Both the position numbers and the translations under genes were made by a program. A stretch of DNA of 64,000 nucleotides from Gammaproteobacteria bacterium (GTDB lineage: Bacteria > Pseudomonadota > Gammaproteobacteria > Eutrophobiales > Eutrophobiaceae), in the NCBI GenBank assembly GCA_030829985.1, contig JAURNW010000016.1:1-64000 (forward strand). Reading direction: 5' to 3'. Position 1 is the first letter of the stretch, and the number at the start of each line of letters is the position of its first letter. Of this stretch, positions 28,531-34,747 are shown one piece after another. The notes under the pieces were generated by a model. That model made no database searches and had not been told where the DNA came from. It saw nothing but the letters and a program-made list of their open reading frames with translations.

Positions 28531-29124
28531 ATGACGAGTCTTGATGATGAAACTGAATTAATCAAGGGTCTGAAAGAAGGAGATCAACTCAGTTACAAAA
28601 AACTGGTCGAAGCATACTGGATAGAATTAAACTTCCTTGCTGGACGTCTATTAGCTGATGAAGCAATAGCAAAAGATTGTGTCCAGGAAGTTTTCATAAA
28701 AGCGATAACTAAAATAGCTGGTTTTGAAGCACGTGGAACTCTAAAGGCCTGGTTACATCAGATAACTGTGAATGAGGCATTGATAGAATTACGAAAAAAA
28801 TCTGCCAGAAAAGAGGACTCTCTGGATGAGCTTATGCTTGAATTTGATGAGACTGGGCATTACATAGATCATTATCATGGTCGTCCTGTCAGTCAGGACG
28901 CTTTACTCGAATCACTCGAAGTCAAACAGCATATTAAACTCTCTATCGATAAACTCCCGACAAATTTTCGTATTATTTTAATTTTGCGAGACTATGAAGG
29001 TTATACGACAAAAGAAGTTGCTGAAAAACTGGCTATGACTGAACAAAATGTAAAGGTTCGATTACACCGGTCTCGGTTAGCATTGCGAAACCTTCTAAAG
29101 CCCGTATTAAGGGAGCAGCAATAG
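28531..29124 (+). CDS. ECF-type RNA polymerase sigma factor
   Basis: The 197-residue protein has sigma region 2 (about 20-90, with DCVQEVFIKAITKIAGFEARGTLKAWL) and sigma region 4 (about 135-190, with YEGYTTKEVAEKLAMTEQNVKVRLHRSR as the -35-binding helix-turn-helix). There is no region 1 or 3, so it is group 4 (ECF). The downstream GTG start of a zinc-type anti-sigma gene overlaps its stop by one base. The bufferin/HvfA-like operon follows, and this sigma factor most likely directs its transcription. Its own ribosome site is weak. Confidence 0.92.
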   Translation: MTSLDDETELIKGLKEGDQLSYKKLVEAYWIELNFLAGRLLADEAIAKDCVQEVFIKAITKIAGFEARGTLKAWLHQITVNEALIELRKKSARKEDSLDELMLEFDETGHYIDHYHGRPVSQDALLESLEVKQHIKLSIDKLPTNFRIILILRDYEGYTTKEVAEKLAMTEQNVKVRLHRSRLALRNLLKPVLREQQ

Positions 29125-29405
29125 TGAAACACATAAATCACAAAACAGTAATAAAAAATCATATTACCTGTCGTATGGTCGAAGAGTTTCTTATGGCTTA
29201 TCTAGACAAGGAATTAAGTTTCTGGACCAGACTTCGTTTTAAATTACATTTGTTAATCTGTTCAGACTGCACAAATTATATGCAGGAATATCAAAACACT
29301 ATCGCGCTTGGGCTCCGACTATTCAATTCACCAGATGAAGTTGCGGTTAATCTGGTGCCAGCTGAAATACTGCAGGCTATTATTAATGTGCGAAAACCGC
29401 TTTGA
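29124..29405 (+). CDS. Soluble zinc-binding anti-sigma factor (zf-HC2/ZAS type)
   Basis: A 93-residue protein with the zinc motif H42-x3-C46-x2-C49, plus Cys16 and an upstream helix (EEFLMAYLDKEL) as in ZAS-type anti-sigma factors such as RsrA and ChrR. There is no transmembrane segment, so it should act in the cytoplasm. In this class, thiol oxidation or metal displacement at the zinc site frees the sigma factor. It starts with GTG overlapping the sigma stop by one base, so expression is translationally coupled. The inducing signal here (copper or oxidative stress) is inferred from the downstream operon. Confidence 0.88.
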   Translation: MKHINHKTVIKNHITCRMVEEFLMAYLDKELSFWTRLRFKLHLLICSDCTNYMQEYQNTIALGLRLFNSPDEVAVNLVPAEILQAIINVRKPL

Positions 29406-29470: not shown

Positions 29471-29685
29471 CTAAAAAAGCTAAATTTATGATTAAACAGG
29501 GTTTAATTCTTAAAACCAAGAACTTTTCTCACAGTATTAAGTCCATTAGGTGTAGTTAGCGAATCAGGCATTTGATGCGCATTAGATGTGATCTATATTG
29601 CGTACCAATGACACTATATATTTTAATATGAATTATGCTCATCACGAGCAATATTTTTTGTTCAATCCTCCAGGAGAAAGTAAAG

Positions 29686-30012
29686 ATGTCAAACAAGAAT
29701 AAACTAAACCCATTAGCCGTTGCATTAGGAACTACTTTTGCAATTTCACTATCAGCCAGTCCGATTATTAATGCGGCCGATAATCCATTTGCAGCCACTC
29801 AATTAAGTAGTGGTTATATGGTTGCTGATGCTCATGGCGAAGGTAAATGCGGCGAAGCCAAATGCGGTGACAAGAAAGAAGCTGAAGGTAAATGTGGTGA
29901 TAAAAAAGCCGAAGGTGCATGCGGTGATAAGATGGGTGAAGAAGGTAAATGCGGCGATAAGAAGAAAGAAGAAGGTAAATGCGGCGAAGGCAAGTGCGGT
30001 GACAAGAAATAA
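29686..30012 (+). CDS. hvfA: HvfA/bufferin-type precursor peptide with seven EGKCG-like motifs
   Basis: The 108-residue precursor has a Sec signal peptide (1 to about 31), a spacer (32-50) and a low-complexity C-terminal region (51-108) with cysteines at 55, 60, 70, 79, 89, 99 and 104. Five are in EGKCG, one in EAKCG and one in EGACG, separated by lysine/glutamate linkers such as DKKEA. In HvfA and bufferins the DUF692 enzyme converts such cysteines to copper-binding oxazolone/thioamide or 5-thiooxazole groups. I chose the ATG at 29686, behind CAGGAG, because it gives the signal peptide. The processing and the final location, which is the periplasm in the relatives, are inferred. Confidence 0.9.
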   Translation: MSNKNKLNPLAVALGTTFAISLSASPIINAADNPFAATQLSSGYMVADAHGEGKCGEAKCGDKKEAEGKCGDKKAEGACGDKMGEEGKCGDKKKEEGKCGEGKCGDKK

Positions 30013-30029: not shown

Positions 30030-30884
30030 ATGTTTAAAGAGTATCCTGTATCAGGTGCAGGTCTCGGTCTGCGGCGAGCCTTTATTGGCTCGCTCGCAGA
30101 GTCTATACCAGAACAAATCGACTTCATGGAAGTGGCGCCTGAAAACTGGATAGATGTTGGTGGAAAGTTTGGCCGTGCATTTCGAAAAGTTTCAGAACAA
30201 GTTCCTGTCGTCTGTCATGGCTTATCTTTAAATATTGGCGGTGTAGCTCCACTTGATGAAGCCTTTTTACACAAGGTAAAGCAGTTTCTTGAAACACATA
30301 AGATACGAATTTATAGCGAACATCTGAGCTATTGTGCAGACATGGGTCATCTTTATGACCTGATGCCGATCCCCTTTACCGAAGAAGCGATCAAATATGT
30401 GGTTAAAAGAATTAAACGTGTTCAGGATATTCTTGGACAACGTATAGCAATGGAAAATGCGTCTTATTATGCAGCTCCTGGTCAGGAAATGCAGGAAATC
30501 GATTTTATTAATGCTGTTATGGAAGAAGCCGATTGTTATTTTCATCTCGATATTAATAACATTTATGTGAATAGTATTAATCATAAATATGATGCCGAGA
30601 AATTTCTAAAGGCTTTGCCCGGTGACCGAATTGCTTACGCACACATCGCTGGTCACTATGTTGAGGAAGAAGACTTACGTGTCGATACTCATGGTGCCGA
30701 TGTCATTGATCCCGTATGGAAATTACTTGATGTTGCCTACGAACATTTTGGCGTTTTTCCAACATTGCTCGAACGTGATTTTAATATACCGCCATTAAAT
30801 ATTCTGCTTAAAGAAGTAGATACAATTAAAAATTACCAGACACAACATTCTTCAAATGATAGTATTCGAAAAAAACAAAGCTAA
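30030..30884 (+). CDS. hvfB: DUF692 multinuclear non-haem iron oxidase (MNIO), HvfB/BufB-like
   Basis: The 284-residue TIM-barrel protein belongs to the DUF692 family, whose members use two or three iron ions to oxidise peptidyl cysteines. Likely metal ligands are in VCHGLSLNIGG, SEHLSYC, MENASYY, FHLDINNIYVN, YAHIAGHY and DTHGADVIDPVW, an order typical of the family. It starts 17 bp after the precursor gene and overlaps the DUF2063 gene by 29 bp. These are the standard partners, so the substrate should be the upstream EGKCG peptide. The exact chemical product cannot be read from sequence. Confidence 0.93.
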   Translation: MFKEYPVSGAGLGLRRAFIGSLAESIPEQIDFMEVAPENWIDVGGKFGRAFRKVSEQVPVVCHGLSLNIGGVAPLDEAFLHKVKQFLETHKIRIYSEHLSYCADMGHLYDLMPIPFTEEAIKYVVKRIKRVQDILGQRIAMENASYYAAPGQEMQEIDFINAVMEEADCYFHLDINNIYVNSINHKYDAEKFLKALPGDRIAYAHIAGHYVEEEDLRVDTHGADVIDPVWKLLDVAYEHFGVFPTLLERDFNIPPLNILLKEVDTIKNYQTQHSSNDSIRKKQS

Positions 30885-31650
30885 CCATTTTCAGAACGTA
30901 CAGCATGTTTTTACACAGCATATGCGTGATCCTGAAAATAATCCTGCACCTGACGGCATTGAAGAACGGCGGTTAAAAATATATCGAGAACTTGTCTACA
31001 ATAATATTGAAGGTTTTATCGCAAATAGTTTTCCTGTACTGAGAAAAGTAATTGAAGATGAAGAATGGCATAAGATGATACGTGATTATCTTGCTAATCA
31101 TCAGTCGCATACACCTTTGTTTCCAAAAATGCCGCAAGAGTTTTTACAATATCTGGAACACGAATGCGTTGCCCATAAAGATGATTATCCTTTTCTGCTC
31201 GAATTAGCACATTACGAATGGATTGAAACCTCGATCTCTATGGACGCACGTGAAATATCATTTCATGGGATCGATCAAGACGGTGATCTGCTAAAAGGTG
31301 TTCCTGTCATTAGTCAATTAGCTATGCCATTGGCATATGAATGGCCGGTGCATACGATTAGTCCTGACCTGATTCCAGAATCATTACCAGAGCAAGCAAC
31401 GTATATTGTTGTTTATCGTGACAGGAATGATGCAGTCGGTTTTATTGAACTAAATCCGGTATCAGCCAAGTTGATAGAGTTCCTTACAGAGAATACCAAT
31501 AAAACAGGCAAACAAATGCTTGAGTTAATTGCTGAGCAACTGCGGCATCCAAACCCTGAGATTGTTATAAAGGGTGGGCTCGAGATTATGCAAGACTTCA
31601 AGAACAAGGATGTTGTATTAGGCACAAGAATCAAGAATTCACGACAATAA
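30856..31650 (+). CDS. hvfC: DUF2063 partner protein, HvfC/BufC-like
   Basis: The 264-residue soluble protein has the DUF2063 N-terminal domain (about 15-105; RLKIYRELVYNNIEGFIANSFPVLRK is characteristic) and a C-terminal domain of the NGO1945 type. In the HvfABC and bufferin systems this protein binds the precursor and presents it to the MNIO enzyme. Its start lies inside the end of the MNIO gene (29-bp overlap), implying coupled translation and a stable complex. Confidence 0.92.
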   Translation: MIVFEKNKANHFQNVQHVFTQHMRDPENNPAPDGIEERRLKIYRELVYNNIEGFIANSFPVLRKVIEDEEWHKMIRDYLANHQSHTPLFPKMPQEFLQYLEHECVAHKDDYPFLLELAHYEWIETSISMDAREISFHGIDQDGDLLKGVPVISQLAMPLAYEWPVHTISPDLIPESLPEQATYIVVYRDRNDAVGFIELNPVSAKLIEFLTENTNKTGKQMLELIAEQLRHPNPEIVIKGGLEIMQDFKNKDVVLGTRIKNSRQ

Positions 31651-31683: not shown

Positions 31684-32292
31684 ATGACGACTATAATCAA
31701 TATTATAAATTGGGCTCAGGATTTGCTTGACCGGGTAATTACAACAACAGGATTTATCGGCCCTTTATTATTACGATTATATCTCGTCCCCATTTTCTGG
31801 ATCGCCGGTTCTAAAAAAATTAACTCCATAGATGGCACTATAGAGTGGTTTGGAAATCCTGATTGGGGTCTGGGCTTACCTTTTCCTGCATTATTAGCAT
31901 GGGCAGCATCATTAACGGAAGCCGGTGGTGCGATTTTGTTATTGCTTGGTCTGGCTACTCGCTGGATTTCAATTCCTCTTATGGCAACAATGATTGTTGC
32001 CATGGTAACGGTGCATTTACAGTATGGTTGGTTAGCAATAGCGGAAGGTTCTGGCTTCTTTGCAACAGAGAGAACCGTAGGCGCAATCGAACGACTGGAT
32101 CGAGCAAAGGATATATTGAAAGAACACGGTAACTACGGCTGGTTAACAGAAAATGGCCATATCGTGATACTCAATAACGGAATCGAGTTTGCAGCAACTT
32201 ACTTTATTATGTTGTTAGCATTATTAGTTATTGGTGGCGGGAAATATATCAGCGTTGATTATTGGTTAGCTAAAAAATATAGAACTTTATAA
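31684..32292 (+). CDS. DoxX-family membrane protein (BufD-like)
   Basis: The 202-residue protein has four or five hydrophobic helices and the DoxX pattern LRLYLVPIFWIAGSKK in the first and AASLTEAGGAILLLLGL in the second. It has a longer middle loop (about 115-160) than minimal DoxX proteins. A DoxX gene commonly ends bufferin-type operons. It lies 33 bp after the DUF2063 gene with an AAAGAGAG ribosome site. The role in copper handling or redox is unknown; the DoxX family includes quinone-linked thiosulfate oxidase subunits. Confidence 0.88.
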   Translation: MTTIINIINWAQDLLDRVITTTGFIGPLLLRLYLVPIFWIAGSKKINSIDGTIEWFGNPDWGLGLPFPALLAWAASLTEAGGAILLLLGLATRWISIPLMATMIVAMVTVHLQYGWLAIAEGSGFFATERTVGAIERLDRAKDILKEHGNYGWLTENGHIVILNNGIEFAATYFIMLLALLVIGGGKYISVDYWLAKKYRTL

Positions 32293-32299
32293 TCAAATA

Positions 32300-34747
32300 T
32301 TATTTCCAGGAATTTACAAGTGTCTGTGGTGCCTCAATCGCGTAACCCTGTACATAATCGATTCCAATCTCAAATAACGACTCAACAATATCATTATCTT
32401 CGATACACTTTATAATTGTTTGTGCTCCGATCAGGTGATTTATTTCATTTATTGATTCAAGTAACTTATAGTCATAATCATATTGACTATTGATATTGCT
32501 GAATTGTCTTGCATCAAGTTTAATATAGTCAATATTCAGTTGCTTGATACTATTGACGGTTGCAGGATTAATATTACAATCATCCAGTGCAATTTTGCAT
32601 CCCTGTTGTTTCATTAATGTAACAAAGTGTTTGAAACGTTCCATATTGTCAGAAAACTGTGATTCATTTATTTCAAAACAAATGTTACCAGCAGGAATGT
32701 CATAGTCTTTAAAAATATCTATGGCGTACTTAATAAAACTTTCATTCAAGACAGATTGTCGCGAAAGGTTGATGCTTATGATATGTGCGTCATTAAATAA
32801 ACGGTTTCCATAAGCAAACATCTCTATTACTACCTTCAACACCCAGTTATCTATAGCAGGCAAAATATAATAGTTTTCTGCAGTATGTATAAAATTATTT
32901 GCTGACAATAACTTCCCGTTGTCATTTTCCATACGAAGTAATACTTCATGAAAAACAACTTCATTTAAGTCATCAAGAGGTTTTATGCGTTGTGTGTAGA
33001 GCTTGAAGCTTTCTTTTTCAAGATTATTTTGAATATTCCCCAATATTATTAGTTCACCAGCATGCTGTTTTTTATATGGTGCGCCGGTTTCAAATAACTC
33101 AATTTTATTTCCACCCGTATCTTTTGCTACGTAGCAAACAAGATCAGCATCTCTCTTCAATTCGGTAAGTGATAAAGTCGATTCATTGAGTGGAACTATT
33201 CCTATACTGGCTGTTATGTTGAATTGCTTGCCATTCCAGTCAAATTTTGTTTTCAAGACTTCTTCACGAAATATATCAGCAATTAATTTTGCTTTTTCAA
33301 GACTACAGCCATACATGATCACAGCGAATTCATCACTGCCCAATCGTGCAACAGTGTCTGTGTCACGCGCTGTTTTCTTTAATTTAGTTGATATCTTTTT
33401 TAATAATTCATCACCTGCGTGATGGCCACAACTATCATTAATCAGTTTGAATCTGTCGAGATCTATATAACATATTGCATGTTCTCTTTTTGTATTTTTA
33501 GAGTTGGAAATCAACTTACTTAGTTCTTCATCAAATTCACGACGATTTATCAGACCGGTTAAGGTGTCATGTTTAGTTTGCCAATTAATATTTTTCTCCA
33601 TGTTACGTTTTTCAGTAACATCCCGAAAAATCATTACAGCACCGGTGATTGAATTATCTTCCTGTTTTATAGGTGTAGCACTGTACTCAATAGCGTATTC
33701 CAGGCCATCACGTCTTATAAGAATTGAATTATCAGCACCATTTATGTTTGAATTTTGATTCATACATAGTTCAATTGGATTTGATAGTTTCACATGACTC
33801 GTTTCATCAACAATATTAAGCAGCAATGATAGATTTTTACCTTTTATCTCTTCGGCATTCCAACCGGTGTATATCTCTGCTACCGGATTCATATAAACTA
33901 CGCAGCCAAATTGGTCTGTTGAAATGACACCCTCACAGATATAGCGCAAGGTTTGTTCTGCCTGTTTTTTTTGTCGGGACACAATGCCATTAAGTTTCAA
34001 GCATTCAGTATTGTCCTTGTTTAAATTTACATTCAGTTCCCTGGTCTTTTCGATAATAGTGTATAAATTCTTAGCCTGACCACTTATTTCATTAGCTAGA
34101 TTAAATGCCTCATGCAAGGATTTTGAATAATAGCTCGCAGCAATAAGCAGTATGCAATATGTCACTGCCAGTAGGGCTGCAATGGGGTATGCCTGTTCCG
34201 GTGGTAAACTGTATATCCAGAAGATAATCGGAAATATAAATGTCGAAATATAAATAATATAAGCGGGTAAGAAAACTGAAAGTATTGGAAGATACCCGAT
34301 AGACATGGTTGATAAAATTAATAATAAAATTATCTGCACAAAGGGACTTGCCATGGGTAGAAATAATAAATAACCAATACTAAAGGTCAATGCACTGATG
34401 CCAACCATAAATGTTTGATAAACAGCCCACTGATTATCAATTTGAAGAGAATTTTTTTGTTTGTCGAATTCTCTGAATAAAAATGATTGTACAAATGTTG
34501 TTAGTGCAATGAAGGATAACCATGGTATGTAGAGATAATCTGGTGTGGTTGGTATTATGAACCAGCTTATCAATAAGGCGGCGATGATGTTTAAGAAGGT
34601 ACCAATAGGAGCTTGCTGATATAAATAATGCAGCTCTTTATTATTACTGACATGACACTTAACAGGTTGTTCTATGTAATTACTTTCCAGAGACTCTAAT
34701 AAGTGCCTTGACGTTACTTCGTTATTATAAACATTTTCAATTGCCAC
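32300..34747 (-). CDS. Membrane PAS-GGDEF-EAL protein with a degenerate EAL site
   Basis: The 815-residue protein has about six membrane helices (50-210), a PAS domain (about 265-390), a GGDEF domain with GSDEF near 467-471, and an EAL domain (about 560-810). The diguanylate cyclase signature is usable (G-S-D-E-F). In the EAL domain the first motif reads EVLLR, and NLS, ExxE, the lysine of YIKLD and the Q of YVQGY are present. However, the loop that is normally DDFGTG reads DDCNIN, and AEGVE is replaced by IKCIE near 778-782, losing a catalytic glutamate. Phosphodiesterase activity is therefore doubtful. It converges with the DoxX gene, 7 bp apart. Confidence 0.9.
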   Translation of the reverse strand: MAIENVYNNEVTSRHLLESLESNYIEQPVKCHVSNNKELHYLYQQAPIGTFLNIIAALLISWFIIPTTPDYLYIPWLSFIALTTFVQSFLFREFDKQKNSLQIDNQWAVYQTFMVGISALTFSIGYLLFLPMASPFVQIILLLILSTMSIGYLPILSVFLPAYIIYISTFIFPIIFWIYSLPPEQAYPIAALLAVTYCILLIAASYYSKSLHEAFNLANEISGQAKNLYTIIEKTRELNVNLNKDNTECLKLNGIVSRQKKQAEQTLRYICEGVISTDQFGCVVYMNPVAEIYTGWNAEEIKGKNLSLLLNIVDETSHVKLSNPIELCMNQNSNINGADNSILIRRDGLEYAIEYSATPIKQEDNSITGAVMIFRDVTEKRNMEKNINWQTKHDTLTGLINRREFDEELSKLISNSKNTKREHAICYIDLDRFKLINDSCGHHAGDELLKKISTKLKKTARDTDTVARLGSDEFAVIMYGCSLEKAKLIADIFREEVLKTKFDWNGKQFNITASIGIVPLNESTLSLTELKRDADLVCYVAKDTGGNKIELFETGAPYKKQHAGELIILGNIQNNLEKESFKLYTQRIKPLDDLNEVVFHEVLLRMENDNGKLLSANNFIHTAENYYILPAIDNWVLKVVIEMFAYGNRLFNDAHIISINLSRQSVLNESFIKYAIDIFKDYDIPAGNICFEINESQFSDNMERFKHFVTLMKQQGCKIALDDCNINPATVNSIKQLNIDYIKLDARQFSNINSQYDYDYKLLESINEINHLIGAQTIIKCIEDNDIVESLFEIGIDYVQGYAIEAPQTLVNSWK

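Follow-up and report, generated by a model that had tools for sequence, protein, structure and literature searches.

The 64,000-nucleotide stretch of DNA analysed here (the window) contains a complete hvfABCX operon, in which hvfB, hvfC and hvfX all score above their NCBIfam cut-offs, and the hvfA product is, judged from its sequence, a precursor of the Buf_EGKCG/oxazolin/captophorin class of 5-thiooxazole copper peptides. Thousands of relatives of this peptide are known, and it is a typical member of a family that was described recently. Among these relatives, the residue before the cysteine follows different rules in paired and in isolated motifs; this distinction is what merits an experiment, and it may be useful. 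The locus comprises the following features:

28531-29124, forward strand: ECF sigma factor gene, 12 bases after lysS (Pfam Sigma70_r2, 1.8e-12; Sigma70_r4_2, 2.3e-13)
29124-29405, forward strand: anti-sigma factor gene with the HxxxCxxC zinc/redox (ZAS) motif HLLICSDC (Pfam zf-HC2, 6.3e-10)
29520-29546, forward strand: putative ECF promoter of hvfA, -35 GAACTTTT, -10 AGTCCAT, with a 14-base spacer from GAACTT to AGTC
29686-30012, forward strand: hvfA-type precursor gene, 108 aa, with a Sec-like leader (about residues 1-30) and a seven-cysteine core
29836-30009, forward strand: core, consisting of the doublet EGKCG-EAKCG, the singlets EGKCG, EGACG and EGKCG, and the doublet EGKCG-EGKCG
30030-30884, forward strand: hvfB, MNIO (DUF692) enzyme (PF05114, 1.8e-103; NF003818, 442.8 bits, cut-off 360)
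30856-31650, forward strand: hvfC, DUF2063/RRE partner protein (NF050145, 299 bits, cut-off 142; PF09836)
31684-32292, forward strand: hvfX, DoxX-family membrane protein (NF050144, 229 bits, cut-off 80)

The initial annotation described five EGKCG motifs, one EAKCG and one EGACG, with seven cysteines spaced by 5, 10, 9, 10, 10 and 5 residues, and these descriptions are exact. Its span of 29835-30009 located the core, which begins at about residue 51, but is shifted by one base from the reading frame, in which codon 51 begins at 29836, and covers the core alone of a coding sequence that runs to a stop codon at 30010-30012. Alignment showed that the start codon (ATG, 29686) and the ribosome-binding sequence CAGGAGA 5′ of it are kept in relatives. 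The Sec-like leader (MSNKNKLNPLAVALGTTFAISLSASPIINA) ends near INA-A; by reading of the sequence it has a lysine-rich start, a hydrophobic stretch and a cleavage-like site at INA-A, and these features are conserved in relatives. The motif array is not due to chance, because the precursor matches the KCGExKCG domain model NF050137 (35.1 bits, cut-off 19.5) and three family-specific maturation genes lie 3′ of hvfA. NF050137 repeats with adjacent MNIO and DUF2063/RRE genes are among the marks of the Buf_EGKCG/oxazolin family (captophorin, Lys-Cys group), and all are present; we call the precursor HvfA-type and not an HvfA equivalog because it scores 36.3 bits against NF050188, which has a cut-off of 95. 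Two other assignments were rejected: a BufA1 bufferin (DUF2282), as the precursor had no Pfam match at E values up to 1, and a methanobactin (MbnA/MbnB), as HvfB reached 40 bits against TIGR04159 (MbnB), with a cut-off of 325.

The hvfB and hvfC genes overlap, hvfC beginning before hvfB ends. Structural matches were the Histophilus somni DUF692 protein (PDB 3BWW, 6e-73) for HvfB and the gonococcal PDB 3DEE (1e-11) for HvfC. Arg15, Arg16, Asp250 and Phe251 of HvfB correspond in position to Arg15, Arg16, Asp249 and Phe250 of FonB, which are residues of the captophorin MNIO Lys-Cys group and include the catalytic base Asp249 (PMC13097082). In published relatives every EGKCG cysteine is modified and the products bind copper (PMC13097082, PMC12538549, PMC13419390). 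Homology and these relatives support the earlier reading of hvfA as encoding an MNIO substrate with a role in copper binding, and the seven cysteine motifs are probably turned by the neighbouring iron enzyme (MNIO) into copper-binding rings.

We hold it to be very probable that the whole locus specifies a captophorin-type RiPP, with ECF-regulated hvfABCX, 5-thiooxazoles made by HvfBC, Sec export and periplasmic sequestration of Cu(I). According to this model, envelope or redox/metal stress would free the ECF sigma factor from the zinc-type anti-sigma factor, and the freed sigma factor would then drive hvfABCX transcription at the 29520-29546 promoter. HvfC would bind the Sec leader and present the core to HvfB, which would oxidise the cysteines (-4 H each) to 5-thiooxazoles, and the modified peptide, exported by Sec, would sequester periplasmic Cu(I). 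Motifs paired at a spacing of 5 residues are probably the main copper-binding units, and isolated motifs are probably modified too, under a looser constraint at the residue before the cysteine. The two-ligand copper site that the initial annotation derived from paired motifs is plausible, and the authors of the fontiphorin study suspect stochastic copper binding (PMC13097082). Copper detoxification in vivo is not certain, because in Microbulbifer copper did not induce the related operon, which conferred little protection (PMC12538549).

Within the family, 46 of 53 genomes had HvfC-family genes, mostly with precursors beside them; across the class, such genes occurred in 160 of 274 sampled genomes (92 above cut-off). 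The comparison set consisted of 99 distinct precursors, each with at least four motifs, giving 737 motifs and 638 motif gaps. The doublet spacing, to which the initial annotation drew attention, proved to be conserved: 304 gaps were exactly 5 and the others clustered at 9-16, the last gap was 5 in 77 precursors, and paired spacing is a family trait. Both end gaps were 5 in 57 precursors compared with 20 after gap shuffling; this excess was not taken as a sign that the end pairs are special, since pairs simply alternating with linkers would produce it as well. How many pairs and isolated motifs a precursor has, and in what order, varies freely, even inside the genus; the nearest relative, the precursor of the sister species G011, is about 89-90% identical and shares the layout of the window's precursor (5, 9, 9, 10, 10, 5). 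Another genome of the genus (G002) has two hvf loci, L091 and L103, whose long precursors differ and contain 14 and 11 motifs, and hvfB and hvfC matches in the second locus are only partial or split. Near the start of a further locus (L031, genome G048), a precursor carries EGKCG motifs on both sides of a central EF-hand-like calcium-binding segment, whereas published fusions have C-terminal EF-hands.

Of 170 isolated motifs, 65 had a residue other than lysine before the cysteine; among the 567 motifs that form part of a 5-spaced pair or triplet, this number was only 41. Within-precursor shuffling gave 42.7 (s.d. 2.8) such residues in isolated motifs, and 65 was reached in 0 of 5000 shuffles; because the precursors are related, permutation numbers here and below are not strict probabilities, and the per-precursor count (25 for the effect, 2 in reverse; sign test p = 5.6e-6) is the safer figure. 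In a second sample of 25 new precursors the same difference was seen (19/42 isolated and 5/140 paired motifs; 0/5000; sign 10:1). Moreover, the rule persisted without the genus of the window, and without precursors bearing arrays of identical non-lysine motifs. For position 2, glycine against other residues showed no effect of isolation or pairing in the precursor set. The lysine rule was not found in the publications consulted, which is no proof that it is unreported.

Both variants of the window sit where the family allows them, since EGACG is an isolated motif and EAKCG is the second member of a pair; we propose that EGACG is tolerated in its isolated motif because the constraint before the cysteine is looser there. 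However, the sister species G011 has EGKCG at both of these sites, so the variants are lineage-specific, and the view of them as a conserved design was rejected. For the same reason they make a weak test of what the MNIO needs, a use suggested for them at the outset, and that question is largely answered in print. Native FonA67-80 (SGEAKCGEGKCGEK), which contains EAKCG, is modified at both cysteines, and FonBC accepts the doubled variant EAACGEGACG, with position 5 requiring a small residue (PMC13097082). Hence, lysine and the first glycine are not strictly needed, at least by FonBC. Functional selection of EAKCG and EGACG, with EGACG serving for example as a dedicated non-modified or weaker copper site, would fit the enrichment of non-lysine residues in isolated motifs and of EA in second members of pairs (18 compared with 8.7 expected, 0/5000). 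Yet this seems very unlikely given the standard motifs in the 90% identical precursor of G011, the acceptance of EAACG and EGACG by FonBC, and the presence of a non-cysteine Ala in position 3 in just 4 of 99 precursors.

A different possibility is that modification is confined to the four paired cysteines, with the three isolated motifs (EGACG among them) serving as spacers or drifting as unmodified thiols, giving a product with four thiooxazoles. FonBC left a one-repeat FonA peptide unmodified and modified a two-repeat peptide (PMC13097082), and isolated motifs may therefore stay unmodified; relaxation of the lysine in isolated motifs agrees with this, as do the two clear cysteine losses seen (EGSSG in L038 and EGKYG in L096), both in isolated motifs. 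Against this, nearly all isolated motifs retain Cys, Gly and Glu, and when one cysteine of a pair in MmrA was mutated, the other was still modified, though the neighbouring pentad remains in that peptide (PMC12538549). We regard modification of the paired cysteines alone as unlikely, and modification at all seven sites as the preferred reading. Seven modified sites predict a mass change of -28 Da, and four paired sites -16 Da.

Tentatively, and with somewhat less than even confidence, we suggest that the sites of HvfA-type precursors fall into two classes that differ in function: 5-spaced pairs that depend on the lysine, acting as copper-binding or processive-enzyme units, and isolated motifs, in which the residue before the cysteine is free and which may be modified differently, bind copper differently or stay unmodified. 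In the publications consulted, EGKCG substrates of stated layout consist of pairs or triplets, with no isolated motif in FonA peptides (2, 3 and 2 sites; PMC13097082), HvfA (three pairs; PMC13419390) or MmrA (three pairs; PMC12538549), and about a quarter of the natural motifs sampled are isolated. Should isolated motifs prove to behave differently, the number of copper sites counted per peptide would need revision, as would ideas of how an MNIO walks along its substrate. The 2+1+1+1+2 precursor of the window, whose isolated motifs include one EGACG, would lend itself naturally to distinguishing the two classes.

Sister species G011 also bears on the relation of precursor and enzyme. It is identical to the window at 91% in the sigma factor, 82% in the anti-sigma factor and 85% in hvfX; for hvfB and hvfC the values are 68% and 67% (L170 5931-7536 against window 30030-31650). 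The drop in identity starts at about 30031 and ends within about the first 150 bases of hvfX, and trees place the hvfB and hvfC genes of G011 outside the genus, paired with those of G017 (support 94/85 and 93/80). The simplest reading of these sequences is replacement of hvfBC in G011 by recombination with the precursor retained, and this suggests that precursor and enzyme are interchangeable across some distance. Convergent with hvfX lies a gene for a PAS-GGDEF-EAL protein (window 32300-34747, reverse strand), which has the same place in G011 and is only 69% identical there.

The sigma factor gene adjoins hvfA in G001, G003, G009 and G011, and alignment of upstream regions of relatives in the genus showed a conserved promoter block, GAACTTTT...AGTCCAT. 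The strict motif RRAACTTN14AGTC occurred in 16 of 58 upstream regions compared with 0.02 expected from mononucleotide shuffling, a count that is somewhat favourable to the motif, as part of this set had served to define it. It is also kept in species whose sigma gene does not adjoin hvfA. In its own genome the motif had 8 matches in all, compared with 13 in controls, and defines no regulon because of this lack of excess; no matching site was found upstream of the sigma gene. Homologous clusters are under ECF control in Neisseria (PMC2893595), Haemophilus (PMC7907618) and Caulobacter (PMC3511200), and the sigma factor encoded at 28531-29124 would regulate hvfABCX in the window. The ZAS-type anti-sigma factor is of the same kind as Neisseria MseR and Haemophilus HrsE, whose sigma factors control homologous DoxX/DUF692/DUF2063 clusters together with methionine sulfoxide reductases (PMC2893595, PMC7907618), and this would fit a peptide serving mainly in redox or hypochlorite stress and not as a copper buffer. 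We find such a role rather doubtful, because characterised EGKCG products bind copper; however, stress signal and product chemistry are separate questions, and both can hold.

The locus resembles several known systems. Fontiphorin FonABC of Fontimonas thermophila shares EGKCG/EAKCG repeats, seven cysteines, an MNIO with a DUF2063 partner and the same HvfB specificity residues, but LysC peptides of FonA show grouped repeats with two, three and two modified sites, and the minimal fon cluster has no sigma factor, anti-sigma factor or DoxX genes (PMC13097082). The oxazolin HvfABCX system of Haemophilus influenzae has the same operon and EGKCG pairs, and a Sec leader where the window's precursor has a Sec-like one, but its pairs are three AEGKCGEGKCG pairs with no isolated motif (PMC13419390), and its sigma factor RpoE2 is encoded elsewhere and not at the locus (PMC7907618). 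The Neisseria NMB2140-NMB2145 operon with rpoE and mseR (gonophorin) also combines DoxX, DUF692 and DUF2063-type genes with an ECF sigma factor and a zinc-type anti-sigma factor (PMC2893595, PMC13097082), in a different gene order and with a different promoter (GTMAGBWTT / CGTCTAAH, 12-13 spacer; PMC2893595). Bulbicupramide MmrABC of Microbulbifer likewise has repeated EGKCG pairs, which an MNIO/DUF2063 complex modifies and which bind copper, but MmrA carries three two-cysteine cassettes flanked by Lys repeats, and its expression is not induced by copper (PMC12538549).
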